Origin: Hyphococcus flavus
GTDB lineage: Bacteria; Pseudomonadota; Alphaproteobacteria; Caulobacterales; Parvularculaceae
Assembly (NCBI RefSeq): GCF_028748065.1
Contig: NZ_CP118166.1
Location: forward strand, 1,875,501 to 1,939,500
Length of the DNA: 64,000 nt
Direction: 5' to 3'
Shown here piece by piece: positions 5,245 to 47,742 of the stretch. The notes beneath the pieces are model-generated. The model saw nothing but the letters and a program-made list of their open reading frames with translations. It did no database searches and was not told the DNA's origin. How positions within the stretch are numbered: position 1 is the stretch's first letter; each line of letters begins with the position of its first letter. Position numbers and translations under genes: made by a program.

Positions 5245-5312
5245 CTGTGCAGAACTGAACGCTCTGATCAAATGCAACCTTTTTTGGAAACGGTATTCAG
5301 CCGTAAGGAAAG

Positions 5313-8487: not shown

Positions 8488-8504
8488 ATAGTGTGACCTG
8501 CGCT

Positions 8505-9215: not shown

Positions 9216-9358
9216 GAGAAACTCCGCCGCTCGCTACATGCTAAACAGTCTTCAAATTGTGCAAAAAATCAAGTCTTGAGTGAGGTTTGGGCCAAGACGG
9301 CGGGTGACACGCGGGATAAAAGAAGCTGAACGACCTGTGCGCCCGCGAGGAGATCAGA

Positions 9359-10306: not shown

Positions 10307-10316
10307 ACGTTCGCTT

Positions 10317-12505: not shown

Positions 12506-12537
12506 CGAAACTATAGAACAGACCACTGGAGGCAATG

Positions 12538-15086: not shown

Positions 15087-16532
15087 CTAGAATGGGTAGT
15101 GCGGTTTTTCAGTGTTTATTGTTATCCATTTTCGCTCGGTGAATGCGTCAATACCTGCAGCACCGCCAAAGCGTCCGTATCCTGATGCGCCAACACCCCC
15201 GAACGGCATTTGCGGTTCGTCATGTACTGTTGGACCATTGACATGACATATGCCGCTTTTGACGCGGCGGGCTATTGCAAGGGCGCGGCTGGCGTCTCTG
15301 CCAAATACAGCCGAGGATAATCCGTATTCGCTGTCGTTGGCGACGCGAATGGCCTCATCTTCATCGCTAACGCGAATGATTGATAATATCGGGCCAAAGC
15401 TTTCCTCGTGATAAAGCCGCATGTTTTGCGTAACGTTGTCGACTATTGTGGCTTGCATGATGAGGCCATTTGCATGGCCGCCGGCTATCAGCGCTGCGCC
15501 TTTTTCTGTGGCGTCATCAACCAGGGCCTTTGCATGCTCAACAGCTTTGCAATCAACCATATGGCTAATCACAACCTGTTCTGTGTTTGGTCCTGACGGT
15601 AGTGCAACTGCACGGGTGGCCAGTTTTTCAACAAATTGATCCGCACATGTTTGGTCGACAATGACGCGTTCAGTGGACATGCAAATTTGACCCTGGTTAG
15701 CATACCCGCCGAATATGGCGGCATCGACAGCAGCGTCGATGTCCGCATCGTCTAGTACGATTAAGGGCGCCTTGCCGCCAAGTTCCAGTAATACCGGTTT
15801 CAAAGCACGCGCACAGGTCTCAGCGATTATTCTGCCGACCCGCGTAGAGCCGGTGAAGTTTACCCGCCTGACAGCGGCATGTTCGATTAGGGCGGCGACG
15901 ATTTTACCGGCATCCTCCGGCGCATTGGAAATAACGTTGATCGCGCCCGCCGGCGCGCCTGCATCCTGCACCGCCTTGCCGATCATGTAATGCACGCCGG
16001 GACAAACTTCCGACGACTTCAAAATGACTGTGTTGCCGCAGGCAAGCGGTGTTGCAATTGCGCGCGCGCCCAAAATAATAGGTGCGTTCCAGGGAGCGAT
16101 GCCAAGAACAACTCCAGCAGGCTCGCGAACCGCCATCGAAATAGTGCCGGGGCGATCGGAAGGAATGACATCGCCATTAATTTGCGTTGTGATAGCGGCT
16201 GCTTCTCTAAACATATTTGCGGCGAGCATACAGTTGAATGCAGCCCACGGCGCTGTCGCACCTGTTTCGGCCATCATTTGGGTGACAAAATCTTCTTTTC
16301 TCTCGTCAATAATCTCCGCAGCTTTTCGTAGAACTTCCCTGCGCGCATTGGGTCCGTATGAAGACCATAATGAAAAAGCGCTCTGTGCAGCGTCTGCGGC
16401 GGAGACGGCGTCATCTATAGTTGCTGCTGCAGCTCTTGAGATTAACTCGTCAGTTTCTGCATTTATGCGTTTGAAGATGGCATTGTTAGAGGCAGGTTTT
16501 TCTTGCCCGCCGACCAGTAGTGGAAAATCCAT
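15087..16532 (-). CDS. Aldehyde dehydrogenase (salicylaldehyde / vanillin dehydrogenase-like)
   Basis: Protein of 481 residues from the ATG at 16532; a GTG 36 bases upstream gives a 493-residue form without a ribosome-binding site. GIAPWNAPIILG, VNFTGSTRVGR, the catalytic glutamate in LLELGGKAPLIVLDDAD and the catalytic cysteine in NQGQICMSTERVIVD are intact. The C-terminal pattern HDEPQMPFGGVGASGYGRFG is characteristic of the group that oxidises aromatic aldehydes such as salicylaldehyde and vanillin. It stands alone on the minus strand with no aromatic-pathway neighbours, so its natural substrate is uncertain. Confidence 0.85.
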   Translation of the reverse strand: MDFPLLVGGQEKPASNNAIFKRINAETDELISRAAAATIDDAVSAADAAQSAFSLWSSYGPNARREVLRKAAEIIDERKEDFVTQMMAETGATAPWAAFNCMLAANMFREAAAITTQINGDVIPSDRPGTISMAVREPAGVVLGIAPWNAPIILGARAIATPLACGNTVILKSSEVCPGVHYMIGKAVQDAGAPAGAINVISNAPEDAGKIVAALIEHAAVRRVNFTGSTRVGRIIAETCARALKPVLLELGGKAPLIVLDDADIDAAVDAAIFGGYANQGQICMSTERVIVDQTCADQFVEKLATRAVALPSGPNTEQVVISHMVDCKAVEHAKALVDDATEKGAALIAGGHANGLIMQATIVDNVTQNMRLYHEESFGPILSIIRVSDEDEAIRVANDSEYGLSSAVFGRDASRALAIARRVKSGICHVNGPTVHDEPQMPFGGVGASGYGRFGGAAGIDAFTERKWITINTEKPHYPF

Positions 16533-16995
16533 CGTTTGAGTCTCAAGCTGAGTTTTCAGGCTGCGCACTAGGCGGCTGTATTCAGACTAATACAGATATA
16601 TTCGGCTGGCGTCATCTTCACGACGAGCCTCCAATGAGGGTTTTTCGGTACTTTAGTTATATAATTGATTTCGCTAATTGGCTATTTGCTTTCGTGATAA
16701 TCAAAGGCAATGCGTGTGGTAACGAGATCATCGTTATTCGTGCACGTTTGCTCTATCCAATCCTATGGATTTCGCCGCTTGAGTAAGCCGCTCAAACATT
16801 GGTGTTTTTATTGGCTCGGAATGACGGCTTGAGGCGTTCCAAGGCATAAAACCAGCCAGATTGAAGCATTTTATTTTTATTGCGTTCACAAAAGCCAAGC
16901 CTGCTTGTCACGAAGCTTTATCGCTGCAAACCACCGGCTCATGAGCACGTAAACCCGAGTTAGGTGGGCGTGGTTCTTGAGGTGCTGTCATTTGC
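16533..16995. other. Long intergenic region without a supported gene
   Basis: This stretch separates the aldehyde dehydrogenase (minus) from the promoter region of the receptor at 17119. An 88-codon plus-strand frame at 16520-16786 overlaps the dehydrogenase start and has no ribosome-binding site or recognisable domain, so I do not call it. No RNA gene or mobile element was seen. The promoter of the minus-strand dehydrogenase should lie in its first 100 bases. Confidence 0.5.
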
Positions 16996-17019
16996 AAAAA
17001 CATTCACTAGTGATTTTTT
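16996..17019. promoter_or_regulatory. Upstream operator-like palindrome of the TonB receptor cluster (site 1)
   Basis: AAAAACATTCACTAGTGATT contains the inverted repeat TCAC-TA-GTGA and shares its first 12 bases (AAAAACATTCAC) with site 2 at 17081. It ends 2 bp before the -35-like element of the candidate promoter. The paired arrangement suggests binding by a dimeric regulator, for which the cluster's TetR protein at 21264 is the obvious candidate. Confidence 0.5.
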
Positions 17020-17080: not shown

Positions 17081-17104
17081 AAAAACATTCACACGTGAAT
17101 GCTT
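17081..17104. promoter_or_regulatory. Downstream operator-like palindrome (site 2)
   Basis: CATTCAC-AC-GTGAATG is a perfect 7-bp-arm inverted repeat preceded by AAAAA, repeating the first 12 bases of site 1. It lies in the predicted leader, 15 bp before the receptor start. Sites 1 and 2 are 85 bp apart (start to start), close to eight helical turns, and bracket the candidate promoter. That arrangement suits repression, possibly by looping. Confidence 0.55.
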
Positions 17105-17118
17105 GTTGGGAGGGGCCA

Positions 17119-19212
17119 ATGCTTCCAAAAATTCAGAAAAAACAACTTCTTGCCTGTGTTTCCATATTTGCGGTGCCCGGGGTGAGCGCGCATGCCGCAG
17201 ATGAAATCGTTGTCACGGCGCAAAAGCGTGAACAATCGCTTCAGGACGTACCGATTTCCGTGACCGCCGTTACGGAAGACGACTTAAAAGCGCGCGGCGT
17301 TATTACGCTCGAAGATTTGCAGTTCATGGTGCCGAACGTATCGGTTACCAATGAATTCCAGACCGTGACGCCGAAATTCTCTATCCGCGGTGTTTCCTCA
17401 AATACACGCAATATTGGCTTTGAGTCCGGCCTTTCGGTTTATATTGACGGCGTTTATACAGGTCGGCCCATCGGTCAGAGTTTCGATCTGACAGACGTTG
17501 GGCAAATCGAAGTTTTGCGCGGCCCCCAAGGCACGTTATTTGGTAAGAACAACACAGCTGGCGCGATAAACGTCATAACGAAAAAACCTGGCGAGGAAGT
17601 CGCTTATAATCTTGTGGGCGAAGCAGGCAATTTTGGTCTTTACCGCTTTTCAGGCGATGTCTCAGGGCCTTTGTCCGATACACTAGGCGCCAAGTTGGCG
17701 CTTTATACGACGCAGCGCAATGGAACAGTCGAGAACGTTTTTGATGGTACAGATCTTAACGACATTGATTCTCTCGGAGGGCGCGCAGGGCTTTATTGGA
17801 CGCCCTCGGATGATTTTGAGGCAAGCCTGGTTGTTGACGCTTTCCGTGACCGTCGTGCGCGTGCGTTTCCAGAGCCGCTGGACGGCGATCCGCTTGCGAC
17901 GACTGGTCCGCGAACTGTAAACATAGATCTAAACGGGCGTGAAGACCGGGACTCGTTCGGGGCCGCGCTTAATCTCGAAAAAAACTTTGATTCTGGTCTC
18001 TCTCTAACCTCGATATCGGGCTATCGTAAAACAATTATCGATAATCAGTTTATCGATAATGATGACACGCCAGCGCCCGCTATTGCTGTAAATGGCTGGT
18101 TCGAAGAAGCGGAACATTTTTCCCAGGAAATTCGTCTGGCTTCAGACGCAGGCAGCTCGTTTGATTGGATATTGGGCGGGTATTACTTCTACCAGAAAGT
18201 GAATAGCGAAAGGCCAATTGTTGTATTTGGCTTTGACGGGAACTCTATCGGTGAAGTTGTGACGAACAGTTATGCCGGCTTTGGGCAGGTTAATATTCGC
18301 CCGGTAGACCGGCTTACTGTCACAGGCGGCGCCCGTGTTACTTATGAAAAAAAGGAGCTAAATAATTTCACGCAAGACATCATGATTTTGTTTCCATCAT
18401 TTGGTCCTCTTCAGGATGAAATTGATGAAACCAACTTTTCACCGATGGCGGCGTTAACTTATGAACTTTCCGGCTCGTTAAACGTTTACGGCACCTATTC
18501 GAAAGGCTTTAAAAGCGGCGGTTTTAATGTCGATTATATAAGCGATGCATCTGACCTGTCGTTTCTATCAGAATCAGTCGGCAATGCTGAGGTAGGTTTG
18601 AAAGGCAATTTCCTTGAGGGTGATCTTACGTTTGCTGCCTCTGCCTTTCAAATGAAGTACGACGATCTTCAGGTGCTTACCCTTGATGATATTTCTGGAG
18701 GCTTGACGGTCCAGAACGCGGTGAAAGCAACCATTAAAGGCTTAGAGTTTGAATTCAGCGCGAGGCCTGTGCAAGGCTTTGAGATCGTAGGCGGTCTTGG
18801 CGTGCTCGACGCCACATATGATGATTTCCGAAACGCTGATGCGATGGGCAGTGATTTTACCGGAAATGAGCTTCCGGACGCGCCAGGGCTGACGGCAAAC
18901 GCTGCCGCGCAGTACACGCACGAACTTGGCGGCTCCGGATCTCTGTTCGGTCTTGTTGAATGGAGTTATCGTGATGAGCGGTACTCCTCAGCCAGCAATA
19001 CAATCGTCACGCAGGCCGAGGATATTTCCCTTGTGAACATGCGTGCTGGTTATCGTTCGCCCGATGAGCGTTGGGAATTGTCAGCGTGGGTAAAAAATCT
19101 TGCTGATACTGATCGCATCGTATTTGGATTCGCCAACCCGTTCTCAGGCGCTATTGCCGGAACCTATAATGATCCGCGCACATGGGGTGTAACGCTCCGT
19201 GTCAGCGGATAA
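17119..19212 (+). CDS. TonB-dependent outer-membrane receptor, cluster 1
   Basis: Protein of about 697 residues. The ATG at 17119 is preceded by GGGAGGGG and gives a standard signal peptide ending near VSAHA. The upstream GTG at 17095 lies inside a palindrome and is rejected. The mature N-terminus DEIVVTAQKREQSLQDVPIS holds a TonB-box-like element, followed by a plug domain (IRGVSSNTRN, VDGVYTGRP, VEVLRGPQGTLFGKNNTAGA equivalents, about residues 45-160) and a beta-barrel ending in TWGVTLRVSG. Receptors of this type in alphaproteobacteria import a wide range of organic molecules besides siderophores. It opens a same-strand set with hydrolases, an MFS carrier and oxidative enzymes, so it probably takes up the substrate of that pathway. 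No iron-related gene is near. Confidence 0.93.
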   Translation: MLPKIQKKQLLACVSIFAVPGVSAHAADEIVVTAQKREQSLQDVPISVTAVTEDDLKARGVITLEDLQFMVPNVSVTNEFQTVTPKFSIRGVSSNTRNIGFESGLSVYIDGVYTGRPIGQSFDLTDVGQIEVLRGPQGTLFGKNNTAGAINVITKKPGEEVAYNLVGEAGNFGLYRFSGDVSGPLSDTLGAKLALYTTQRNGTVENVFDGTDLNDIDSLGGRAGLYWTPSDDFEASLVVDAFRDRRARAFPEPLDGDPLATTGPRTVNIDLNGREDRDSFGAALNLEKNFDSGLSLTSISGYRKTIIDNQFIDNDDTPAPAIAVNGWFEEAEHFSQEIRLASDAGSSFDWILGGYYFYQKVNSERPIVVFGFDGNSIGEVVTNSYAGFGQVNIRPVDRLTVTGGARVTYEKKELNNFTQDIMILFPSFGPLQDEIDETNFSPMAALTYELSGSLNVYGTYSKGFKSGGFNVDYISDASDLSFLSESVGNAEVGLKGNFLEGDLTFAASAFQMKYDDLQVLTLDDISGGLTVQNAVKATIKGLEFEFSARPVQGFEIVGGLGVLDATYDDFRNADAMGSDFTGNELPDAPGLTANAAAQYTHELGGSGSLFGLVEWSYRDERYSSASNTIVTQAEDISLVNMRAGYRSPDERWELSAWVKNLADTDRIVFGFANPFSGAIAGTYNDPRTWGVTLRVSG

Positions 19213-19231
19213 GGCAAGCTTAAAAAGCTTT

Positions 19232-19264
19232 TGCGGCCTGCGAAAACAACTCCGTCAGGCCGCA
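19232..19264 (+). terminator. Intercistronic stem-loop after the receptor gene
   Basis: TGCGGCCTG at 19232-19240 pairs perfectly with CAGGCCGCA at 19256-19264 (9 bp, 15-base loop). Only ACAATTTTC follows, a weak U-tract. It may be a partial terminator or an mRNA-stability element that makes the receptor more abundant than the downstream enzymes. Confidence 0.5.
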
Positions 19265-19293
19265 CAATTTTCAAGGGTAAGATACGAACAACA

Positions 19294-20376
19294 ATGAGTG
19301 GTCATTTTTCAGAATCGGTCACTGATGCGCACCAAAAATTTGTAGCCAGCGCTGAGGCTGCAGGTGCTGAGATAGAGCTCCGGCGGCATCCGCTTAAAGG
19401 CCCGTCTGGAGAAGATTTGTGTATGGCGGCGGCCCGGCTTGGCCCGGCTTCTGCGCGGCGCGTGTTGCTTGTTAATTCAGGTACGCACGGTGTTGAGGGG
19501 TATGCCGGGTCCGCTCTGCAAATTGGTTATTTAGATTCATTTGATGCTTCACGTTTGCCTGCCGACGCCGCAGTTTTGCTGGTTCATTTAGTTAACCCTT
19601 GGGGTGCGGCATGGGACAGGCGAGAAAACGAAGACAACATAGATGTGTTTCGCAATTTTGTTTATTCCACGCCGCCGTTCCCCGACAATCCCGAATACCG
19701 TTATCTGGATGATGCTATAAACCCGTCCTCATGGACTGATGACACGCTGCGTAGAGCGGATGAGAAAATCAAAGCGTATATTACGGCTCATGGGAAAGAC
19801 GCTTTTATCGCGCTATTTCGTCAAGGTCAGCACTTCAATGCTAAAGGCTTAACCTATCATGGCAGGGGACCTTGTTGGTCCAAGCAGACATTTGATTCCG
19901 TTGCGTACAAAATGATTCCTAATGTGCAACTTGGAGTTTGTGTTGATATTCATACTGGCTTTGGCGATTTCGGTGACGGTTTGGTCATTATGTATCGCAG
20001 CCAAGGTAAAGAACGCATCGAGTTTTCCAGGCACGTTTATGGCGAAGTATATATTGCTGGCGATGATGCGCTCATACCGCAGCATGGAAGCATGCCATAT
20101 GACATACTCAGTCACGCGCCATTTGCGCAAATCCATTGCGTTGGGCTTGAGTTTGGCACTTATGACTTGATGCAAGAGATAGATCTCTTTCGTCGCATCA
20201 ATTTCATTTTTGCTTATGAGGACCCTCTACGCCGAGAAGCAGAACTGGCGCGTGGTAAAATGCGAGAGCTTTTATACCCTGCTTCTAGTGAATGGCGTTC
20301 GTCAGTGCTTGCCCGCGGCAAAGAAGTATTGAGAAATGCGGAACTTGCGGTCGCAAGCTGGGACGGGGCTGCGTGA
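19294..20376 (+). CDS. DUF2817 family zinc-carboxypeptidase-like hydrolase
   Basis: Protein of 360 residues. NSGTHGVEGYAGSALQ supplies an HxxE zinc-ligand pair (His and Glu about residues 65-68), and VDIHTGFGDFG supplies the third His. This is the layout of M14-like peptidases in the DUF2817 group. The C-terminal GLEFGTYD holds a likely catalytic glutamate. The ATG at 19294 is chosen over an earlier in-frame start at 19231, which lies within the intercistronic stem-loop. No signal peptide, so it is predicted cytoplasmic. It ends with TGATG, sharing one base with the next gene. It probably removes an amide- or peptide-linked group from the imported compound, but the substrate is unknown. Confidence 0.8.
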   Translation: MSGHFSESVTDAHQKFVASAEAAGAEIELRRHPLKGPSGEDLCMAAARLGPASARRVLLVNSGTHGVEGYAGSALQIGYLDSFDASRLPADAAVLLVHLVNPWGAAWDRRENEDNIDVFRNFVYSTPPFPDNPEYRYLDDAINPSSWTDDTLRRADEKIKAYITAHGKDAFIALFRQGQHFNAKGLTYHGRGPCWSKQTFDSVAYKMIPNVQLGVCVDIHTGFGDFGDGLVIMYRSQGKERIEFSRHVYGEVYIAGDDALIPQHGSMPYDILSHAPFAQIHCVGLEFGTYDLMQEIDLFRRINFIFAYEDPLRREAELARGKMRELLYPASSEWRSSVLARGKEVLRNAELAVASWDGAA

Positions 20377-21242
20377 TGAGGGTCGAAGTCGACGGAATTC
20401 GTATCTTTTTTGAAGTCGCAGGGTTTTCTTTGGAAGCAGATGGTCCTGAGTTTCGTAAGCGTCCAACGCTGGTAGCATTGCATGGCGGCCCAGGTTGGGA
20501 TCATTCCGCCAGCCGTGACGCGCTCGCGGTACTCTCCGAGTTTTGTCAAGTGATTTTTTATGACCACCGCGCCCACGGCCGTTCTGATGGGTGGGAAGAT
20601 ATCAGCCGTCAGACACTTGATCAGTGGGGTGACGATGTGGCGGCGTTTTGCGATGCATTGGAAATAGAGAAGCCTTTCATATTGGGCACGTCATTCGGTG
20701 GTATGGTGGCGCAAAGTTATGCCGTTCGCCATCCCGATCATGCATCCGGCGTTATCCTGAACAGTACCTCTGCAAAATTTGTTCTTGATGATGTCTGCGA
20801 AACTTTTCGCAGAGTTGTGGGTGAAGACGCCGAGCATATAGCGCGACAGGCGTTCACCACCGGTACGCCAGAATCGCTTGAGCGATACTATGAGCGATGC
20901 CTGCCTAAATACAGTACTGACCCCATGCCGCCAGATAAAAAGGCGCGGATCATTTACAATGAGGAATTGATCCGGCGCCTTTTATCCCCTGGAGGGGCGT
21001 TACGGCAGATGGACTTCCTTCCTAAGCTTGGCTCTATCACCTGTCCGGTGCTGGTGCTTGGCGGTAGAGACGACCCTATTTGTCCGCCCCAAGCGGCTAC
21101 CGCGATTGCGGAGGCGATCGGAAAAAATGCAGAGCTTCATATTATTGAGGGATGCCGTCATGGGATTGTGCAGGAAAATCCCGAAATTGGCGCAGTCTTA
21201 GTCAAAGATTTTCTCGACCGCGTATTCAGTCCGCGCGCATGA
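20376..21242 (+). CDS. Alpha/beta hydrolase, proline iminopeptidase-like
   Basis: Protein of 288 residues. HGGPGWDH is the oxyanion-hole motif typical of proline iminopeptidases, GTSFGGMVAQSYA carries the nucleophile serine, GGRDDPICPP the acid and GCRHGIVQENP the histidine, so the triad is complete. The start ATG shares one base with the previous stop (TGATG). Family members release N-terminal proline or hydrolyse related amides and lactones. Together with the DUF2817 hydrolase upstream, it implies a two-step breakdown of an amide- or ester-linked substrate. Specificity beyond that is not visible. Confidence 0.85.
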   Translation: MRVEVDGIRIFFEVAGFSLEADGPEFRKRPTLVALHGGPGWDHSASRDALAVLSEFCQVIFYDHRAHGRSDGWEDISRQTLDQWGDDVAAFCDALEIEKPFILGTSFGGMVAQSYAVRHPDHASGVILNSTSAKFVLDDVCETFRRVVGEDAEHIARQAFTTGTPESLERYYERCLPKYSTDPMPPDKKARIIYNEELIRRLLSPGGALRQMDFLPKLGSITCPVLVLGGRDDPICPPQAATAIAEAIGKNAELHIIEGCRHGIVQENPEIGAVLVKDFLDRVFSPRA

Positions 21243-21263
21243 AACGAAACAGGAGTTAGATTT

Positions 21264-21962
21264 GTGAAGACCTCAGGTGGTAAAATTAGCGCATTGCCCA
21301 CAAAGCGCGGCAAGTCAGGCCCGTCGCAGCCTCAACAGGAGCGAAGCGCAGAAACGCGTCAGCGTCTTATTGAGGCGACTATAGAATGTTTTGCTAAATA
21401 CGGTTTCAGCGACACCACAACTTCATTAATTGCAAAAACGGCAGGCGTAACGCGCGGCGCCTATCTCCATCATTTTGGCTCTCGCGAACAGCTTCTCACA
21501 GAAGCGTTCGGGCATCTTCTTAACAATGTCATGGGAGAATTGGAAAAGCGCATCATCGTTCTTTTCCAGGAAAACCGGCAAAGTGAAATTCTCGATGAGA
21601 TCTGGAAAGCAGGCTTTGAAGACTGGCTCTATCCCGGTTTTGAACTTCTATTGCATTGTCGTCACGACCCCGAAATGCGCCGCTACTGGATGGCGCATTC
21701 TGCAAAGTTTCTTGTGTGGCGGCGGCGTATTTTCAGCAACCTGACTGATGGTGAAGTGCAGGAAGACTCCGACATGATGCACTTGGCGGACGGCTTTCTG
21801 GACCTTCTTCGAGGGATGGCTTTGATGGATGTTGTTCGCACTAAAGCGACAACCCGGGCGCAGCTTGATTTCTGGCGCGGCGTATTCGAGCGGGAAGTCG
21901 CCCATATTCTCAGTAATTCGCAAAACTCCAAAACTAACAAATCCGACAACGTAGAGAAATGA
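21264..21962 (+). CDS. TetR-family transcriptional regulator
   Basis: Protein of 232 residues with a TetR N-terminal DNA-binding domain (about residues 30-80: TRQRLIEATIECFAKYGF, then TTTSLIAKTAGVTRGAYLHH and FGSREQLLTEAF). The C-terminal ligand-binding part is diverged, as usual. Start is GTG at 21264 with AGGAG eight bases upstream. The stop overlaps the transporter start (ATGA). Embedded in the cluster, it is the likely local repressor, and the two 7-bp-arm palindromes around the cluster's promoter (16996, 17081) are the size expected for a TetR site. The inducer may be the imported substrate or its CoA derivative. Confidence 0.9.
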   Translation: MKTSGGKISALPTKRGKSGPSQPQQERSAETRQRLIEATIECFAKYGFSDTTTSLIAKTAGVTRGAYLHHFGSREQLLTEAFGHLLNNVMGELEKRIIVLFQENRQSEILDEIWKAGFEDWLYPGFELLLHCRHDPEMRRYWMAHSAKFLVWRRRIFSNLTDGEVQEDSDMMHLADGFLDLLRGMALMDVVRTKATTRAQLDFWRGVFEREVAHILSNSQNSKTNKSDNVEK

Positions 21963-23329
21963 CCGCGCTCGGAAGCAAACAAGCCTACCCGCCGCCGGCC
22001 CAAGCCTGGAGGGCGGCAATAATACTGAGCGTGCTCTACACGATTTCAAATGTAGACCGTCAGGTAATCGGCTTGTTGCTGCAGCCTATCAAAGACGATT
22101 TGCAGGTTGGCGATACAGAGATGGGGTTGCTTGGCGGCTTTGCGTTCGCGATTTTTTATACAGTTATGGGTCTGCCGATTGCACGCCTCGCAGATAAAAC
22201 CAGTCGGCGTGCTGTTATTTTTGTCGGCGTCGTATTTTGGAGTGTGGCGACAGTCTTTTGCGGTCTGGCGCGAAATTTCACACAATTGTTTATTGGTCGC
22301 ATAGGTGTTGGCGTTGGCGAGGCTGCATTATCCCCCGCTTCGTACTCATTGCTGTCTGACTATTTTCCGCCGTCAAAACTTGGCCGCGCCATGAGTGTTT
22401 ATGTTCTTGGTGCTGCAACCGGTTTTGGGCTCGCCTATTTCGCAGGAGGCGCGCTTTACGGTTATTTTGCAGGCTTGGGCTCTTTTCATATTCCAGTTGT
22501 GGGTGAAATAAAGCCCTGGCAAGCGACGTTCATCGCTGTTGGCGCGCCCGGAATTGCGCTCGCATTCCTGATGACCTTGATCAAGGAACCAGAAAGACGT
22601 TCTAGCTGTATTGCAGATGTAGGCGCACACACACCCACACCCACACAAGGGGGCGCACTCTTACCATTCCTGAAGGGGAATTGGAAAATTCTGGCAATGC
22701 ACTTCGCCGGTATCTCAGGCTTCAATATCGCTGCTTATGGATTCAACTTGTGGCTGCCCGCACATTTTATCCGCGAATTTGGGTGGTCGCCGGCGCAGGT
22801 TGGCGTGACGTTTGGCGGGTATTTTCTCATTCTTGGCGTGGCGAGCATATTAATTGCTGGCCGATTAGCGGACCAAGTGAAAGTCGGCGAGGGCAGAGTC
22901 GTATCTTATTTTCGATTGATGGCGTTGTGGACGTTGATTTCGGTTCCATGTCTTGCGTCGGTTGCGCTCGTGCCAACAGCCGCTTTGGCGATGGTGGTAT
23001 TGGCGCCATGCCTGTTTCTTGCGGCGGGTCCTACGGTTTTTGCGCCGGCAGTACTTCAGTTAATTGCGCCAAACACAGTGCGAGCGCAGGTGTCTGCTCT
23101 TTATCTGTTTGTTGTCAACATAATGGGAATTGGTCTCGGGCCGTTACTCATTGGCCTTATCACTGATTTTGGTTTTGGGGACCCGGCAATGCTGAAGTGG
23201 TCAATCAGCATTGTTTGCGGCGGAGGCGCGGCGCTCGCCTTCATCTTTTTGTTTGCAGGCGTGCGGTTGGCGAGAAGGTCTTTTCAAATAGAAGACGAGG
23301 CGGGCTTTGAAGGAGCGGTTGCGTCATGA
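21959..23329 (+). CDS. MFS transporter (spinster-like)
   Basis: Protein of 456 residues with about 12 hydrophobic segments. TISNVDRQVIGLLLQPIKDD, the loop motif GLPIARLADKTSRR and RIGVGVGEAALSPASYSLL are typical of the spinster-like MFS group found beside TonB receptors in sphingomonad- and caulobacter-type genomes. The middle cytoplasmic loop contains a short CACACC-type repeat coding HTPTPTQ (22626-22647). It should carry the product released in the periplasm, or the intact small substrate, across the inner membrane. It is coupled by ATGA overlaps to both neighbours. Confidence 0.9.
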   Translation: MTALGSKQAYPPPAQAWRAAIILSVLYTISNVDRQVIGLLLQPIKDDLQVGDTEMGLLGGFAFAIFYTVMGLPIARLADKTSRRAVIFVGVVFWSVATVFCGLARNFTQLFIGRIGVGVGEAALSPASYSLLSDYFPPSKLGRAMSVYVLGAATGFGLAYFAGGALYGYFAGLGSFHIPVVGEIKPWQATFIAVGAPGIALAFLMTLIKEPERRSSCIADVGAHTPTPTQGGALLPFLKGNWKILAMHFAGISGFNIAAYGFNLWLPAHFIREFGWSPAQVGVTFGGYFLILGVASILIAGRLADQVKVGEGRVVSYFRLMALWTLISVPCLASVALVPTAALAMVVLAPCLFLAAGPTVFAPAVLQLIAPNTVRAQVSALYLFVVNIMGIGLGPLLIGLITDFGFGDPAMLKWSISIVCGGGAALAFIFLFAGVRLARRSFQIEDEAGFEGAVAS

Positions 23330-24288
23330 AAAAGACCGTATGTGTAGGTGTTGGGTCTATAGGGCGAGCGTGGGCTGTCGTATTTGCAAAAGCCGGTCAT
23401 GAAGTTGCGCTTTATGACGCCAATGCTGATGTCCTTAATGAGGTTAAGGAGCGAATTGAATCGACATTAGGTGACCTGGAGGCTGCGGGCCTTCTGCATG
23501 ACGCGCACTCGGCGATCAACAATATTCGAATAGCTGAAACTCTCGAAGATGCTCTTGTTGACGCCGTTTATGTTCAGGAAAGCGTACGCGAACTGTTGGA
23601 AGTAAAACGAGCGACATTTGAAGAAATTGCATGTTACGCACCTGAAGATGCGATTATAGCAAGTTCGACATCCGCTATCGCCGGTTCGCTTTTTATGGAA
23701 GGTTTACGGAATTCTGCGAATTGTTTGGTTGCGCACCCAACTAACCCGCCTTTCTTGACGACTCTTACAGAGCTGTGTCCAACCTCCTCTACCAGTATTG
23801 CAACACTGAAAGCTGCGAAGAAATTTCTCACCGGCTGTGGCCAAGCAACCGTTACTCTAAAGAAAGAAATAACCGGGTACGCACTAAACCGACTACAGGC
23901 CGCCGTTGTAGCTGAGGCGCTATATCTCGTCGGTGAGGGGTATCTGTCAGCGCCGGACCTTGATGATGTGATGACGCGCGGGCTGGGTATGCGATGGTGT
24001 TTCATGGGACCGTTTCTGACGGGGCACCTAAACGCGCCAACGGGTTACGCTCAGTATATGAATATGTATGGTGACGCCTACCGTAGTATAGTCCGGGATT
24101 TGCGCACTGATTATGAATGGACGCCACGTCTTTTCAAAAAAGTGCAGGATCAAATTGCTGGCGGTGAAGAGACGGCGGACGTTGCTAGTCAGCAAGCATG
24201 GCGAGATCGCCGTTTGATGCTCCTCATTAAACATCTTGAAGAAGCAGACCGTATTGAACCGAGAAAGGGGCAGATCTATGAAGCGTAA
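23326..24288 (+). CDS. 3-hydroxyacyl-CoA dehydrogenase-like enzyme (lambda-crystallin / L-gulonate dehydrogenase type)
   Basis: Protein of 320 residues. The NAD-binding motif GVGSIGRAWAVVFAKAGH lies at residues 8-25, IASSTSAIAG and LVAHPTNPPFLTTLTE form the substrate-side Ser/His region, and GLGMRWCFMGPFLTGHLNAP is the C-terminal helical pattern of lambda-crystallin-type enzymes. These oxidise free beta-hydroxy acids such as L-gulonate with NAD+. L-carnitine dehydrogenases are relatives, but their C-terminus differs from the NAPTGYAQYMNMYGD pattern here. Overlaps the MFS stop (ATGA) and runs 11 bases into the BKACE gene, so a beta-hydroxy acid oxidised here would become the beta-keto acid cleaved by the next enzyme. 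Confidence 0.85.
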   Translation: MKKTVCVGVGSIGRAWAVVFAKAGHEVALYDANADVLNEVKERIESTLGDLEAAGLLHDAHSAINNIRIAETLEDALVDAVYVQESVRELLEVKRATFEEIACYAPEDAIIASSTSAIAGSLFMEGLRNSANCLVAHPTNPPFLTTLTELCPTSSTSIATLKAAKKFLTGCGQATVTLKKEITGYALNRLQAAVVAEALYLVGEGYLSAPDLDDVMTRGLGMRWCFMGPFLTGHLNAPTGYAQYMNMYGDAYRSIVRDLRTDYEWTPRLFKKVQDQIAGGEETADVASQQAWRDRRLMLLIKHLEEADRIEPRKGQIYEA

Positions 24289-25174
24289 AGTCATTATTAC
24301 GTGCGCGGTTACCGGCAATGCGCCATTTAACCCAAAGCATCCCAATTTCCCGGTAACGCCAAAGCAGATTGCAGAGGCGTGTATTGAGGCAGCGAATGCT
24401 GGCGCCGCAATCGTGCATATTCATGCGCGAGATCCGGAAACGACGCATGGCGTGTTTGATGTTGCCCTGTTTAAAGAGATTGTCCATCGTGTCCGAAGTA
24501 GCGGCGTCGATATCTTGATTAACTTATCGGCAGGGGGCGGGGCCTTTTTCTTGCCTGACCCAGAGAACGAAGCAGTTGGATTGCCGGAAAGTGATATGCG
24601 TGATGTTGAAGGCCGAATTGAACACTTGGTTGAGTGTCTCCCTGATATCGCCTCCATAGACGTAACGACTGGCAATCAGGTCGAAGGCGATATGGAGTTC
24701 GTGTATCTGAACACGACGCGTACTCTACGCGGCATGGCGAAGCGCTTTATGGAGCTTGGCGTGAAGCCCGAACTCGAAGCGTTCCAGCCGGGTGATGTTC
24801 TTTTTGCCAATCAACTTATTGAAGAAGGGCTCGTTGAAGGCACGCCAATGATGCAGTTCGTCCTTGGCGTAAAATGGGGTGCGCCATCGACACCGGAAAC
24901 GGTCATGTACATGCGCAATCTTGCGCCGAAAAACGCAGTCTGGACTGCAATGGGGATTGCTCGTGAAGAATTTTCAACCGCTGCTCAGTCTGTTCTCCTA
25001 GGCGGCCACGTACGCGTTGGTCTTGAAGATAATCTCTATCTTGATCGCGGTGTCTTCGCCACCAATGGCCAGCTTGTAGAGCGCGCAGTTCGCATAATTG
25101 AAGATGTGGGCTGTTCGCCAGCTTCACCAAGTGAGGCGCGCGAGTTGTTAGGCATCTCAAAAGTTAGTGCATAA
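24278..25174 (+). CDS. BKACE-family beta-keto acid cleavage enzyme
   Basis: Protein of 298 residues of the DUF849 / 3-keto-5-aminohexanoate cleavage family. The zinc-binding HxH is His47 and His49 in AAIVHIHARDPET, and VRVGLEDNLYL holds the third zinc ligand, a glutamate. Members condense a beta-keto acid with acetyl-CoA to give acetoacetate and a new acyl-CoA; substrate varies widely across subfamilies. The ATG at 24278 with AAAGGGG upstream is preferred over an earlier in-frame start inside the previous gene. No acetoacetate-handling CoA-transferase is in the cluster. The substrate is unassigned. Confidence 0.9.
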   Translation: MKRKVIITCAVTGNAPFNPKHPNFPVTPKQIAEACIEAANAGAAIVHIHARDPETTHGVFDVALFKEIVHRVRSSGVDILINLSAGGGAFFLPDPENEAVGLPESDMRDVEGRIEHLVECLPDIASIDVTTGNQVEGDMEFVYLNTTRTLRGMAKRFMELGVKPELEAFQPGDVLFANQLIEEGLVEGTPMMQFVLGVKWGAPSTPETVMYMRNLAPKNAVWTAMGIAREEFSTAAQSVLLGGHVRVGLEDNLYLDRGVFATNGQLVERAVRIIEDVGCSPASPSEARELLGISKVSA

Positions 25175-25947
25175 TGGGAACCGGCAACGCGCAATCTGTT
25201 GTTATTACCGGCGCCGGGTCAGGGATTGGTCTGGCGACAGCGAAGCTATTTGCTGATAGGGGCGCTCACGTTCATATTTGTGACGTTAGCGAGAGCGCTG
25301 TTCGCGAAGTTCTAAAAAATGATTCTCGTATTACGGGCACCGTTTGTGATGTTGGCGATCCAGAAGGGGTGGCGCGGTTTTTCATTGAAGCGCTTGATGT
25401 AAATGGTTGTGTTGATGTCCTTATCAATAATGCAGGCATCGGCGGCGGTTCGGGGGTGGCGGAGGAAATCGATCTCGAAGATTGGGCGAATACCTTAAGA
25501 ATTAATCTTTCCGGTTCATTTTACTGTATTCGTGAAGCGCTTAAACTTATGAAGCCAAAAGGCGCTGGCTGCATCGTGAATATCTCCACTGCGTCAGTCA
25601 CGGTCGCACTCCCAAACCGTTCTGCTTACATCGCTTCCAAGGCGGGACTACAGGGCCTAACGCGAGCCTTGGCGCGAGAAGTTGGGCCGTTTGGAATTCG
25701 CTGTAATGCAATTCTTCCAGGCCTTATTGACAATCCGCGAGGACGAAAACTTGTTCAAAAATTTGCAGCGAACGCGGGAGAAACAGTTGAGGACACAGAA
25801 GCGCGATTTCTAAAATATGTGTCTATGCGTACATGGATCAAGCCCGAAGAAGTTGGCCGGGTCGCATGGTTTTTAGCTTCTGATGAGGCGCTTCATGTAA
25901 GCGGGCAGTGTATTGGCGTCTGCGGGAATGTAGAATGGGAAGAATAA
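25174..25947 (+). CDS. Short-chain dehydrogenase/reductase (SDR)
   Basis: Protein of 257 residues, a classical SDR. TGAGSGIGLATAKLF is the nucleotide-binding loop, NNAGIGGGSG the structural NNAG motif, and the catalytic serine lies in NISTASVTV with Tyr and Lys in SAYIASKAG. An aspartate after the second strand (HICDVSES) favours NAD(H). The start ATG shares a base with the BKACE stop (TAATG). It may act before the lambda-crystallin-type enzyme on another hydroxyl, or on the residual acyl part. Which of the two dehydrogenases acts on the BKACE precursor cannot be decided from sequence. Confidence 0.88.
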   Translation: MGTGNAQSVVITGAGSGIGLATAKLFADRGAHVHICDVSESAVREVLKNDSRITGTVCDVGDPEGVARFFIEALDVNGCVDVLINNAGIGGGSGVAEEIDLEDWANTLRINLSGSFYCIREALKLMKPKGAGCIVNISTASVTVALPNRSAYIASKAGLQGLTRALAREVGPFGIRCNAILPGLIDNPRGRKLVQKFAANAGETVEDTEARFLKYVSMRTWIKPEEVGRVAWFLASDEALHVSGQCIGVCGNVEWEE

Positions 25948-25990
25948 AAACAAGGCGAGGCGAACGCCTTGATATTTGGGGGAAAGTAAA

Positions 25991-26587
25991 GTGACCAGAC
26001 GTTTCTTGCAGGCGAACTATTATGCAGAACCAGGCCGTAACGATTCTCTTGACGTACTTCGCAACTTAATTCTGCTTGCGCTGCGATTAGGCGGAAAGAT
26101 CGACTTGCCTGCGATAGAATGGCGGCTTTGGCGATCATTACGAGAGAATGACGCCAATTCCTGGCTGGTTACCGAAGAATATCAGAATGCAACTCATTGG
26201 GGGGAAGCTGAAGACTTTGGTGTTGATGACCCTGAGTTGCGTGCTGCCCTACAGGATGCTGATGACCAAGGTTTTTCACCACACGATATTCACCTCCTTA
26301 TGGAAGCAAATAGATTGGGGGAAGAAAAGCATTCCGAAAGGTTGCAAATTGCAACATTCCCAAAAGGCATGCCGTCGGGCATTATAGATGAGTGGTTAAA
26401 CGCGCGTTGTGATCATATTGCTAAAGCTTCCGGAGTACCGCCACTCGCGCGTGTATTTCAGACACGCGTTTCCGGGACTCGCTTTGGCCAAACGCAGATA
26501 TGGCTCACATATGGTAACGGCATTGAGGATAACCTGACGGATAATTGTCAGGCGCCACGTTGCGAATATTTTTCTCGCGGATTTTAA
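25991..26587 (+). CDS. Hypothetical protein at the end of the BKACE cluster
   Basis: Protein of 198 residues that I do not recognise. It starts at GTG 25991 behind GGGGGAAAG (a TTG 15 bases earlier is also in frame). It is acidic, has no signal peptide or membrane segment, and contains a helical, charged centre (SLRENDANSWLVTEEYQNAT) and a late block VFQTRVSGTRFGQTQIWLTY that looks like beta strands. No catalytic motif is evident. Its position 43 bp after the SDR on the same strand suggests cotranscription and a role in the same pathway. The codon pattern and ribosome-binding site support it as a real gene. Confidence 0.65.
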   Translation: MTRRFLQANYYAEPGRNDSLDVLRNLILLALRLGGKIDLPAIEWRLWRSLRENDANSWLVTEEYQNATHWGEAEDFGVDDPELRAALQDADDQGFSPHDIHLLMEANRLGEEKHSERLQIATFPKGMPSGIIDEWLNARCDHIAKASGVPPLARVFQTRVSGTRFGQTQIWLTYGNGIEDNLTDNCQAPRCEYFSRGF

Positions 26588-26777: not shown

Positions 26778-27989
26778 ATGTCCTCGCTTCCATCTACCTT
26801 TTCAAGCGAACATCAGGACTGGGCCGCAGTTGTAAATACTGCGGTGCGATTTCGCCGATCCCTACATCAAGATCCAGAATTAAGCTGGCAAGAAACCAAA
26901 ACAGCCGCCGTCATAAGGAGTGCGTTGGATGCGCTTGGCATCCCGTGGAAGGCGTGTGCTGACACCGGGACACTAGGTTTTATAGCGCAAAATGCAAAAG
27001 GTCGGCGGATCGCGCTGCGTGCAGACATTGATGCGCTGCCGATTGTGGAACAAAGCGGGCGCGAATGGTGTTCAACAACACAAGGTGTGATGCATGCCTG
27101 CGGGCATGATGGTCATGCCGCTACACTAATGGCTACGGCTGCGTGGCTGAAACTTCATGAGGATCAACTGCCGGGACCTGTCACTTTACTGTATCAGCCA
27201 GCGGAAGAAGGCGGTCATGGGGCCAAGCGAATGATTGAAGATGGCGCGCTCCATGATGTTGACATGATTTTCGGCTGGCATAACTGGCCGGGGATACCGT
27301 TTGGAAAGGCTGTATGTCCCGACGGAGTTGTCATGGCGGGCAACGGCACGTTCAAAATTTCGCTTCTCGGCAAAGGCGGACACGCGAGTCAGCCGCAGGC
27401 CTGTCGAGACCCGGTCCTGGCGGCGTCAGCAGTGACGCTCGCTTTACAACAAATTGTAAGCCGGCGTTTGCAGCCACAATCTGCAGTCGTGGTCAGTGTT
27501 ACTTCTATCAATGCGCCGAGCGGCGACACAATTATTCCCGACAAAGCGGAGCTAGGCGGCAGCATTCGGTTGGCGAGTGCTGCAGACCGGCAAGAAGTAA
27601 ATGAATTGATCACGGAGATCGCAAAAAGTGCTGCTTCTGCTTATGGCGTTGAGGCAATCGTTGAGCACTTTTCGCGATATGATGCGACAGTGAACCATGC
27701 TGACGCTGCGGCGTTAATGCGTCAAGCGCTGCTGGATGAGCTTGGGGACGGCTGGAACAGTGCGGACACACCAATTCCTATAATGGCGTCCGAAGACTTC
27801 AGTTATTATCTCAAGGAGAGGCCGGGCGCTTTTGCGCTTATTGGCGCTGATGACGGTGAGCCAAATCACCGCGTATCTTGCCACAGTCCTGAATATGATT
27901 TTAACGATGGTTTGATACCTGTCGTGACAGGCGTTTATTCGCGTCTGGCTGGAATTTTGCCCGATAGAGGCAGAGACAATCAAGAATAA
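26778..27989 (+). CDS. doeB2: M20-family amidohydrolase, probable N-acetyl-L-2,4-diaminobutyrate deacetylase
   Basis: Protein of 403 residues of the M20 aminoacylase / amidohydrolase family. Metal and catalytic elements are ALRADIDALPI, MHACGHDGHAATL, YQPAEEGGHGAKR, HNWPGIPFG and MASEDFSYYL, in family order. By itself it could be any N-acyl amino-acid hydrolase. Three genes matching DoeD, DoeA and DoeC follow directly, and a deacetylase is the one step of ectoine breakdown otherwise missing, so removal of acetate from N-alpha-acetyl-L-2,4-diaminobutyrate is the best reading. The better-known DoeB/EutE belongs to the aspartoacylase family; an M20 substitute has been named DoeB2. The ribosome-binding site is weak. 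Ends 10 bp before the transaminase. Confidence 0.75.
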   Translation: MSSLPSTFSSEHQDWAAVVNTAVRFRRSLHQDPELSWQETKTAAVIRSALDALGIPWKACADTGTLGFIAQNAKGRRIALRADIDALPIVEQSGREWCSTTQGVMHACGHDGHAATLMATAAWLKLHEDQLPGPVTLLYQPAEEGGHGAKRMIEDGALHDVDMIFGWHNWPGIPFGKAVCPDGVVMAGNGTFKISLLGKGGHASQPQACRDPVLAASAVTLALQQIVSRRLQPQSAVVVSVTSINAPSGDTIIPDKAELGGSIRLASAADRQEVNELITEIAKSAASAYGVEAIVEHFSRYDATVNHADAAALMRQALLDELGDGWNSADTPIPIMASEDFSYYLKERPGAFALIGADDGEPNHRVSCHSPEYDFNDGLIPVVTGVYSRLAGILPDRGRDNQE

Positions 27990-27999
27990 GGAGGCGATC

Positions 28000-29235
28000 A
28001 TGGATGTGTTCGAGCAATGGGAATCAGATGTGCGCGGTTACTGCAGGATCTTTCCTACTGTGTTCAAGTCCGCCTCAAATGCACGTCAGGTTGATGAGAA
28101 CGGCCGTTCTTACATTGACTTTTTCGGCGGCGCCGGAGTTTTGAATTTCGGCCATAATAATATGCGCATGAAAAAAGCGATTATCGAATTCCTGGAATCG
28201 GATGGCGTCGCACACAGTCTTGATATGTCAACAACTGCTAAACGTGACTTCATTGAAGCGTTTGTAGAAACGATCATGAAACCACGAAGCATGAACTATA
28301 AATTACAGTTTACAGGTCCGACGGGAACAAACGCCGTTGAGGCCGCGTTGAAAATCGCCCGGCGCGTCACCGGCCGGCGATCGGTCATTGCTTTCAGTCA
28401 CGGATTTCACGGCATGACGCTTGGTTCTCTCGCCTGCACGGCTAATGACTATTTCAGGAACGCGGCTGGAGTGCCGTTGGAAAATGTAACGCGGCTGTCT
28501 TTTGGACACCCTCTGGATGGTATGGCTGAGGCTTACGCTGATAGTTCATCAGGGCTCGATCAACCAGCGGCGATCTTAGTGGAAACAATCCAGGCGGAAG
28601 GCGGGGTCAATGTTGCGACGCGCGAATGGTTGAAAGAGTTGCAACAATTCGCGAAAGATACAGGGGCGCTCTTTATTATCGACGACATTCAAGCCGGATG
28701 TGGCCGGACAGGCGACTACTTCAGTTTCGACGGCATGGGACTTGATCCGGACGTCATTTGTTTAGCGAAGGGCATAGGCGGCTTCGGCACGCCGCTGGCC
28801 ATGAATATGATTAAGCCTGAACATGACAAACACTGGTCGCCTGGCGAACATACGGGCACTTTTCGTGGGCAAGGAATCTCATTTGTCGCTGGCCGTGAAG
28901 CGTTGCGGTATTTCGAAGATGGTTCATTTCTTGACGGCGTAAAAACAAAAGGCGCGCGCATGAATGAAAGGCTGCAAGATATCGCCAAGCAGCACTCCGT
29001 TCATTGGTTTGAAGTGCGCGGCGCCGGCATGATCCAGGGGCTGGATACAAAAGATGGCGAGCTGTCAAAAAAGGTTGTGGCGGCGTGTTTTGAGAACGGC
29101 TTGCTCATTGGCGGGTGCGGCACCGCCGGTCGGGTTCTGAAGCTTATTCCGCCGCTGACGATTTCTGACGACGATTTGAATGAGGGCATAGATATTCTTG
29201 AAAACGCGATCAACAAAGTTGCGGAGGCGGCATGA
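28000..29235 (+). CDS. doeD: L-2,4-diaminobutyrate transaminase, DoeD-like (EctB family)
   Basis: Protein of 411 residues, a class III PLP-dependent transaminase. The N-terminus MDVFEQWESDVRGYCRIFPT and the GGAGVLNFGHNN block match the EctB/DoeD group closely. The PLP-contact aspartate is in FIIDDIQAGCGRTG and the Schiff-base lysine in CLAKGIGGFG. EctB makes diaminobutyrate for ectoine synthesis, and DoeD removes its amino group during degradation; the sequences are alike, so context decides. No ectA or ectC is present while doeA and doeC follow, hence degradation to aspartate semialdehyde. GGAGG precedes the ATG; the stop overlaps doeA by ATGA. Confidence 0.88.
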   Translation: MDVFEQWESDVRGYCRIFPTVFKSASNARQVDENGRSYIDFFGGAGVLNFGHNNMRMKKAIIEFLESDGVAHSLDMSTTAKRDFIEAFVETIMKPRSMNYKLQFTGPTGTNAVEAALKIARRVTGRRSVIAFSHGFHGMTLGSLACTANDYFRNAAGVPLENVTRLSFGHPLDGMAEAYADSSSGLDQPAAILVETIQAEGGVNVATREWLKELQQFAKDTGALFIIDDIQAGCGRTGDYFSFDGMGLDPDVICLAKGIGGFGTPLAMNMIKPEHDKHWSPGEHTGTFRGQGISFVAGREALRYFEDGSFLDGVKTKGARMNERLQDIAKQHSVHWFEVRGAGMIQGLDTKDGELSKKVVAACFENGLLIGGCGTAGRVLKLIPPLTISDDDLNEGIDILENAINKVAEAA

Positions 29236-30443
29236 GACAGCGCGATGACATGACCTTCCCTATGGAAGAGTATGAGCGGCGTATTTCAGAGCTTAGAGCG
29301 CGCATGAGCGAGAGGCTCTTGGACGCAGTGATCATCTCTGATCCGGAGAACATAATGTATCTCACGGATTATCAGACGACCGGTTATTCCTTCTTTCAGG
29401 CGTTGATCGTGCCTTTGGATGGCGAGTGTTTCATGATCACGCGAAATATGGAGGAGTCCAACGTTCATGCGCGGACGTGGGTCGAAAAAACCCGGCCATA
29501 TCCTGATAATGGTGATGCAATTCAGCGGCTCGTGGAGTCGTTGCGTGAATTCGGTCTGTGGGACGCCACGATCGGGTATGAGCGGAACAGTTATTTTCTT
29601 CCTGCTTACCAGCAAGACCGTATCCGAACCGCATTTACCAGCGGGCTGTTGATCGACTGTTTCGGCATCGTTGAGGAAGGACGTTTGTGCAAATCGCCCG
29701 CAGAAATTGAGGTGATGAAAAAAGCCGCTGTAGCGACAGAAGCGGGCATGCGCGCGGCTTACGACATGATTGAACCCGGCGTCACAGAAAATGAAATTGG
29801 CGCTGCAATAAGCCAGGCGATGTTTAATGCAGGCGGGGAGCCGCCGGCTGTCATGCCGTATGTCACATCCGGCCCGCGTTCGATGATCGGTCACGCAACG
29901 TGGGAAGGTCGCAAGGTTCAGCCTGGTGAGCATGTGTTCTTGGAGCTTGGCGGTTGTTACAGGCGGTATCACACGGCGATGATGCGCACCGTTGTGCTTG
30001 ACGAGTTATCGCCAGCCATGGAAGTCGCCCAGTGGCGAATGATGGAATCGCTCCGGCAGGTTGAAGACGCCATTCGTCCCGGGCTGACGGTTTCCGATGC
30101 GGATAATATCATTCGCGACATCATCAACAGCGGCGATCATGGCGGGCATCTGATTACTCGCTCGGGTTACTCTATCGGCATTGCGTTCCCGCCGAGCTGG
30201 GATGAGGGCTATATTCTAAGTCTCATGCAGGGTGATTCCCGCATCCTGAAAGAAGGAATGACATTTCACATTATACCATGGATATGGGGTGTCGAAGGCG
30301 ACAAGACCGTCGGCATCTCAGACACGATTTATGTCACCGAGGACGGATGCGAATCTTTTTTCACGCTTGATCGTGAATTTGTCGTACGTCCTGAAAAGAG
30401 TGCGACTGCGTCCAATGTTCATTCCATTTCTGGCGATGCTTAA
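29232..30443 (+). CDS. doeA: Ectoine hydrolase, DoeA/EutD-like (M24 family)
   Basis: Protein of 403 residues with the creatinase/prolidase fold. It opens the ectoine ring to N-acetyl-2,4-diaminobutyrate. The classical M24 metal ligands are mostly replaced: ELGGCYRRYHTAMMRT stands where prolidases have DxG and D, and SGYSIGIAFPPSW where they have a GHG histidine. The same substitutions, including GYSIG, occur in known ectoine hydrolases, which sets this apart from the true M24 peptidase at 7273. The N-terminal IMYLTDYQTTGYSFFQALIV also fits the ectoine-hydrolase group. Coupled to doeD by a 4-base overlap. Confidence is high for family and good for substrate. Confidence 0.87.
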   Translation: MRQRDDMTFPMEEYERRISELRARMSERLLDAVIISDPENIMYLTDYQTTGYSFFQALIVPLDGECFMITRNMEESNVHARTWVEKTRPYPDNGDAIQRLVESLREFGLWDATIGYERNSYFLPAYQQDRIRTAFTSGLLIDCFGIVEEGRLCKSPAEIEVMKKAAVATEAGMRAAYDMIEPGVTENEIGAAISQAMFNAGGEPPAVMPYVTSGPRSMIGHATWEGRKVQPGEHVFLELGGCYRRYHTAMMRTVVLDELSPAMEVAQWRMMESLRQVEDAIRPGLTVSDADNIIRDIINSGDHGGHLITRSGYSIGIAFPPSWDEGYILSLMQGDSRILKEGMTFHIIPWIWGVEGDKTVGISDTIYVTEDGCESFFTLDREFVVRPEKSATASNVHSISGDA

Positions 30444-30470
30444 GCCGCAAACAATCAGAGCAAATCACTT

Positions 30471-47725: not shown

Positions 47726-47742
47726 ATGACACCGGCCGCTAA
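47572..47742 (+). CDS. Possible 56-codon leader ORF overlapping the autotransporter start
   Basis: Two adjacent ATGs (47572, 47575) follow GGGGGAGAGA and open a frame of 56 codons ending TAA at 47742, 17 bases inside the autotransporter gene. The product is Cys-, Arg- and His-rich, without recognisable domain. Its interest is positional: its ribosome-binding site is within a hairpin and its end overlaps the next start, the layout of translational coupling. It could also be chance. Confidence 0.25.
   Translation: MMREMACTTVIFKDNASQLRDSAAGHSVRCARQRSCCWKPLHHLNHERESSHDTGR

Follow-up and report, generated by a model that had tools for sequence, protein, structure and literature searches.

Gene content and organization

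The 64,000-nt stretch of the Hyphococcus flavus genome analysed here (NZ_CP118166.1, positions 1,875,501 to 1,939,500; hereafter the window) carries a same-strand gene set that combines a TonB-dependent receptor (TBDT), two hydrolases, a major facilitator superfamily (MFS) transporter, two dehydrogenases and a beta-keto acid cleavage enzyme (BKACE) with a TetR-family regulator (Table 1). ORF analysis together with Pfam searches revealed eight intact, open and co-directional genes between positions 17119 and 25947, and Pfam agrees with the protein families that a preliminary description of the locus had named for them. The dense packing reported there, with overlaps of 1 to 11 bases at most junctions, was likewise seen: five of the eight junctions overlap (by 1, 4, 4, 11 and 1 bases), the other three being gaps of 81, 21 and 28 bases.

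As a nine-gene unit, the set holds for these eight genes, while the ninth member, a plausible ORF without relatives, is of doubtful membership because a hairpin (25951–25971) directly follows the stop codon of the preceding short-chain dehydrogenase/reductase (SDR) gene. This orphan may start at TTG 25976 or, better, at GTG 25991 behind GGGGGAAAG, which would widen the last gap from 28 to 43 bases. No relatives were detected in Pfam, NCBIfam, 62 genomes of the same family, plasmids or phages; at E ≤ 10, Pfam returned chance matches only, and a single-sequence structure prediction (predicted local distance difference test, pLDDT, of 42) was too poor for use.

Table 1. Genes and operator-like sites of the analysed locus (window coordinates).
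Feature	Position	Strand	Basis and remarks
Operator-like palindrome 1, AAACATTCACTAGTGATT	16998..17015	.	upstream of TBDT gene
Operator-like palindrome 2, AAACATTCACACGTGAAT	17083..17100	.	85 bp downstream of palindrome 1, 18 bp before TBDT start
TonB-dependent receptor (TBDT), 697 aa	17119..19212	+	Pfam PF00593 + PF07715 (barrel + plug); likely start ATG 17119
DUF2817 protein, 360 aa, predicted M14-like metallo-amidase/carboxypeptidase	19294..20376	+	PF10994, 260 bits; likely start ATG 19294
Alpha/beta hydrolase, S33/proline-iminopeptidase-like, 288 aa	20376..21242	+	PF00561; likely start ATG 20376
TetR-family regulator, 232 aa	21264..21962	+	PF00440 (TetR_N), E 1e-13; likely start GTG 21264
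MFS transporter, 456 aa	21959..23329	+	PF07690 (MFS_1), E 6e-44; likely start ATG 21959
Lambda-crystallin-type 3-hydroxyacid dehydrogenase (HCDH), 320 aa	23326..24288	+	PF02737/PF00725 (3HCDH_N + 3HCDH); likely start ATG 23326
BKACE	24278..25174	+	PF05853, 296 bits; likely start ATG 24278
SDR-family dehydrogenase, 257 aa	25174..25947	+	PF13561/PF00106; likely start ATG 25174
Orphan ORF, 203 aa (198 aa from GTG 25991), membership uncertain	25976..26587	+	no family match

An internal regulator and a pair of operator-like sites

That the set contains its own TetR gene was borne out by the Pfam match and supports one regulated operon. Two near-identical palindromes precede the TBDT gene, and a search of the whole 3.47-Mb genome (a single contig) at ≤1 mismatch returned these two sites only. 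Given their uniqueness and their position just upstream of the receptor gene, the internal TetR protein very probably controls the operon, with the palindromes as its putative binding sites. An Rfam search found no element.

The intergenic region of 550 bp is shared with a divergent aldehyde dehydrogenase gene (15087–16568, minus strand), to which both palindromes are less close than to the TBDT gene; its product received no equivalog assignment.

The BKACE belongs to a clade for which we found no recorded function

BKACEs are diverse, and many of their substrates are unassigned. The window protein matches PF05853 over all 274 profile positions (1–274), far above the cut-off of 24.8 bits. Its metal ligands H47, H49 and E250 (His48, His50 and Glu247 in BsfD) are invariant in 112 of 112 aligned sequences. 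In a tree of these 112 BKACEs it falls into a 20-member clade (support 0.991) that includes PDB entry 3C6C, an old structural-genomics structure and its structural match at E 1e-135 and 66% identity. The 3C6C sequence is the protein of a Cupriavidus pinatubonensis locus (L035; 295/295 compared residues identical), and we found no recorded function for this structure or its clade. As far as could be tested, the placement therefore does not point to a subfamily with a known substrate unrelated to the neighbouring genes. A signature of Q134/D173/V195 is shared by 18 of the 20 clade members, whereas BKACEs linked to carnitine dehydrogenase mostly carry F/H/C at these positions and form separate clades; judged by these residues and the tree, the window BKACE is not of the carnitine type. 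Acetyl-CoA-dependent cleavage of a beta-keto acid is its predicted activity.

At position 169, the window protein has a phenylalanine where characterised BKACEs carry a catalytic tyrosine, a residue stressed in work on BsfD (PMC12871164). BsfD, which acts in flavophos synthesis, shares this phenylalanine, and one might suppose that the window enzyme likewise transfers an acetyl group from acetyl-CoA to a beta-keto acid, giving a diketone, and that the operon is biosynthetic. Clade membership offers a parallel: on a Sinorhizobium mexicanum plasmid (NZ_CP041240.1, L220), a member lies beside non-ribosomal peptide synthetase/polyketide synthase genes and an ectB-like transaminase gene, hinting at biosynthetic use. 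However, Phe169 occurs in 50 of 50 members of the FHC group from carnitine operons; for this reason it is no argument for a different chemistry, and we dropped it as a diagnostic of BsfD-likeness. As Arg91 of BsfD is not matched in the alignment either, and uptake and hydrolysis genes without biosynthetic ones fit catabolism, we regard a BsfD-like function as very unlikely.

The source genome encodes a second, different BKACE (G000:C1:118939-119784, minus strand), which lies outside this clade and received no equivalog assignment.

An SDR is the regular partner of this BKACE clade

Counting SDRs at least 40% identical to the window SDR within 5 kb of a BKACE gene, we found such a partner in 9/18 loci of the 3C6C clade and in 0/73 other BKACE loci (Fisher p = 6e-8, the loci not being fully independent). 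The regular companion of these BKACEs is hence an SDR rather than a 3HCDH-type enzyme and, in view of this conserved pairing, oxidation of beta-hydroxy acids in the operon may fall mainly to the SDR. A class-wide search with the window SDR returned 14 further places, seven with HyuA/HyuB, four with a BKACE and three with an HCDH. At the seven Alphaproteobacterial loci, HyuA and HyuB are mostly 50–70% identical to those of L037, a locus of the 3C6C clade. The window SDR family also recurs on a plasmid of Sinorhizobium chiapasense, in the order SDR-HyuA-HyuB-M81. Recurring Alphaproteobacterial HyuA/HyuB + SDR clusters (L207, L208, L213, L214, L217, L218), sometimes accompanied by a BKACE, a TonB receptor, a serine beta-lactamase-fold hydrolase or an amidase, form a wider undescribed catabolic theme; a literature search for clusters of HyuA, an SDR and beta-keto acid enzymes found none.

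The locus of 3C6C itself (C. pinatubonensis/Ralstonia eutropha JMP134) resembles the window in BKACE clade and adjacent SDR, but where the window has DUF2817, HCDH and TonB receptor it encodes HyuA/HyuB and a protein resembling gamma carbonic anhydrase. The carbonic anhydrase-like neighbour raised the idea that HyuAB carboxylates a ketone in these relatives. This was rejected: the nearest matches of HyuA and HyuB are caprolactamase/oxoprolinase rather than carboxylases, and the window operon lacks HyuAB.

The clade's closest neighbourhoods add different routes leading to the beta-keto acid, or amide cleavages. For instance, L018 contains an M81 gene, L034 combines a CocE hydrolase with a DgcA-like epimerase, and in L017 a BKACE 71% identical to that of the window follows a beta-phenylalanine-type transaminase. 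The latter (best structural match beta-phenylalanine aminotransferase, E 6e-120) raises the alternative that BKACEs of this clade act on aroyl- or aryl-beta-keto acids resembling benzoylacetate, the operon degrading an aromatic conjugate to an aroyl-CoA. The same BKACE precedes a small hotdog-like protein, a putative thioesterase, and the genes that follow in the 3C6C locus (FAD monooxygenase, amidohydrolase, FAH and VOC) are of kinds usual in the breakdown of aromatic compounds. The reaction has a possible parallel in the VceA/VceB pair of Sphingobium SYK-6, which converts hydroxyphenyl-beta-ketopropionates through aroyl-CoA (PMC9618137, PMC11837543). Against this, the window operon has neither a ring-cleavage nor a ring-hydroxylating gene, and the putative thioesterase of L017 reached no NCBIfam family. 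Beta-transaminases of the family seen in L017 also accept aliphatic beta-amino acids. We consider an aromatic substrate possible but rather doubtful.

The HCDH is of the lambda-crystallin type

The assignment of the HCDH to the lambda-crystallin rather than the carnitine type stood up in three comparisons. Its best PDB matches are the lambda-crystallins 3f3s (E 3e-52) and 3ado (2e-51); its scores against the L-carnitine dehydrogenase models NF005716 and NF005471 (171 vs. 592 and 151 vs. 414 bits) lie far below the cut-offs; and the tree groups it with L163, L164 and L165 (support 0.874), outside the carnitine-operon clade. The catalytic S/H/N/E/N positions are kept. Against the 3-hydroxyacid dehydrogenase model NF004783 (PRK06129) it scores 328.7 bits, below the equivalog cut-off of 347, which its tree neighbours of L163 and L164 exceed (351 and 360 bits).

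One of these neighbours provides the closest relative arrangement found: the operon L163 (G142:C8:45500-60936) reads HyuA-HyuB-branched-chain amino-acid-type ABC transporter genes-DUF2817-HCDH-SDR, its SDR being 55% identical to that of the window. In L164, HCDH and SDR (52% identical) are adjacent. In many genomes, HCDHs of the same wider clade are immediate neighbours of BKACEs from another group, and a Caballeronia locus brings such a BKACE together with an HCDH and an SDR in a neighbourhood that also contains lactonase genes.

Two hydrolases and a receptor

The DUF2817 gene begins without a convincing Shine-Dalgarno sequence. In its product, H66, E69, H221 and E287 (numbered on the 361-residue translation from 19291) are invariant among 14 aligned sequences, a pattern resembling the HxxE...H zinc ligands and catalytic Glu of M14 carboxypeptidases, and a VDLNRNF-like motif of the homologues appears as IDVFRNF. 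The best PDB profile matches are M14 enzymes, at marginal values (MpaA, E 0.003; 4oko, 0.015; CPN, 0.05). The natural, if unproven, reading is thus that of a metal-dependent amidase or carboxypeptidase. Single-sequence structure prediction (pLDDT 33) was too poor for use. DUF2817 is common in Alphaproteobacteria, occurring in 83 of 385 sampled genomes, and a search of the open-access literature returned a single paper that mentions it, on an unrelated topic.

For the alpha/beta hydrolase, the best PDB matches are proline iminopeptidases (E 2e-20); among the NCBIfam models, those of lactonases included, it reached no equivalog cut-off. Neither did the TonB receptor.

Parts of the set recur in the genomes examined, the whole does not

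The preliminary description had stated beforehand that a gene order absent from every other genome would speak against the proposed pathway. The search covered 62 family genomes, 385 genomes of the class and, from a BKACE scan across 84,980 species, the 80 matches listed. Neither in these genomes nor among those matches did the full nine-gene order occur a second time, which formally leaves the stated objection standing. Only pairs and triples recur, namely BKACE-SDR, HCDH-SDR and DUF2817-HCDH-SDR. A contig scan with DUF2817 alone confirmed no relative, its patterns stemming from one sequence rather than from conserved ones.

A unique order, an orphan without relatives and flanking operons for the breakdown of other compounds (histidine, hydroxyproline, ectoine) are what one would expect if the nine genes were a loose neighbourhood of unrelated functions within a catabolic island. 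This is at odds with the overlapping starts and stops, the dedicated pair of operator-like sites and the independent recurrence of the three gene combinations, and we judge it unlikely.

A proposed pathway for a beta-hydroxy acid conjugate

We favour the view, which we hold to be probable by a modest degree, that the set is a substrate-inducible catabolic operon for uptake, amide or ester hydrolysis, oxidation of the free beta-hydroxy acid and BKACE cleavage. The order of steps, the individual reactions and the nature of the substrate are proposed from protein families and gene context. The compound would pass the outer membrane through the TonB receptor, and the compound itself or a product would cross the inner membrane by way of the MFS protein. 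Cleavage of an amide or ester bond by the alpha/beta hydrolase and the M14-like DUF2817 protein would release a beta-hydroxy acid, which the SDR and/or the HCDH would oxidize to the beta-keto acid; the two dehydrogenases could serve opposite enantiomers or two different hydroxyl groups. The BKACE would then convert beta-keto acid and acetyl-CoA to acetoacetate and an acyl-CoA two carbons shorter, with the TetR repressor placing its own operon under substrate-responsive control.

Two known systems share this logic. In carnitine-type clusters, which exemplify BKACE-type chemistry (PMC12421898), a 3HCDH-type enzyme, L-carnitine dehydrogenase, oxidizes a free beta-hydroxy acid before BKACE cleavage with acetyl-CoA, in some cases with a thioesterase. 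The window differs in its Q/D/V signature (F134/H173/C195 in carnitine-operon BKACEs), in an HCDH from outside the carnitine-operon clade, and in its additional hydrolases and TonB receptor. The oxidative deoxyribonate pathway combines the SDR PS417_07245 and the BKACE PS417_07250 with a lactonase and an MFS transporter (PMC6365646), and likewise leads from a beta-hydroxy acid via a beta-keto acid to acyl-CoA and acetoacetate; there the hydrolase is a lactonase, whereas the window has M14-like and alpha/beta hydrolases. At L221, a locus of the sugar type that contains lactonases, the BKACE lies outside the window BKACE's clade, while PS417_07250 and the other Pseudomonas simiae orthologues are outside the data set.

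The pathway put forward in the preliminary description is thus sustained as a regulated operon that joins hydrolases, a free beta-hydroxy-acid dehydrogenase and a BKACE; its choice of dehydrogenase is less well matched, as it is the SDR, and not a 3HCDH-type enzyme, that regularly accompanies the BKACE clade. Several further observations weigh against our proposal, beginning with the absence of a second full copy. An HCDH immediately adjacent to the BKACE occurs in no other member of the 3C6C clade, the only other clade locus with an HCDH (L049) having it ~4.4 kb away, and no BKACE lies within the ~32 kb read around the DUF2817-HCDH-SDR trio of G142. The operon contains no CoA-ligase or thioesterase gene for the acyl-CoA product, and the link between DUF2817 and M14 enzymes runs through marginal E-values and motifs. 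Lastly, amide hydrolases in several relatives raise an amide or lactam conjugate as an option, but for the amide- or peptide-linked substrate suggested earlier the enrichment is suggestive and weak: when the seeds came from elsewhere than the clade, amide hydrolases or peptidases accompany 6/18 of its loci vs. 8/72 others (p = 0.03), and 11/18 vs. 9/72 in a peptidase count biased by seeds drawn partly from within it.

Genomic surroundings

Downstream on the same strand, 190 bp beyond the orphan, begins a set for ectoine degradation (26778–31844) comprising DoeB2, a 2,4-diaminobutyrate (DABA) transaminase, DoeA and an SSADH-like aldehyde dehydrogenase; the models for DoeB2 and DoeA and a subfamily model for the DABA transaminase scored over their cut-offs. 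Such proximity would suit an extension of this ectoine/hydroxyectoine operon into the nine genes. Yet known ectoine degradation requires no BKACE or beta-hydroxy-acid oxidation, the 190-bp gap separates the two sets, the operator-like sites lie upstream of the TBDT gene only, and the scanned neighbourhoods of the BKACE clade's relatives contain no ectoine set. Doe-type genes are absent from the nine and were found only downstream (26778–30443), as part of a separate known pathway that merely adjoins; we give an extension hardly any credence.

Behind the ectoine genes follow a second TonB receptor (32210), a tetratricopeptide-repeat sulfotransferase (34851) and a BCCT transporter (36839). Upstream, an amino-acid catabolic stretch (2057–13974) encodes a histidine ammonia-lyase-family protein, urocanase, a proline racemase-family protein and 4-hydroxyproline epimerase, together with DHDPS-family and DAO-type genes and an aldehyde dehydrogenase. 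To our knowledge, the known histidine, hydroxyproline and ectoine pathways use none of the genes of the nine-gene set. Further downstream, an ORF of 3138 aa (47708–57124) without a Pfam match at 1e-10 has an N-terminal signal-like stretch and a repetitive body rich in Gly, Ala, Thr and Ser, and ends in a C-terminus similar to an autotransporter barrel.

A recurring core with exchangeable front ends

The chemistry of BKACE and dehydrogenase is already known from carnitine and deoxyribonate catabolism, and the combination of genes was found only here. What makes the locus of interest is the recurring SDR-BKACE core with its exchangeable front ends, together with a dedicated regulator. Tentatively, the operon could represent one version of an undescribed, horizontally shuffled theme, in which this SDR family and 3C6C-clade BKACEs are joined to front ends such as DUF2817 + HCDH, HyuAB, M81, CocE/DgcA or a beta-transaminase and degrade amide- or lactam-linked beta-hydroxy or beta-amino acids. 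If true, DUF2817 and the 3C6C clade would each gain a first function. The dedicated regulator makes discovery of the substrate practical: operator-like sites number just two in the whole genome, which offers a direct handle, as the substrate would follow once the inducer is found.

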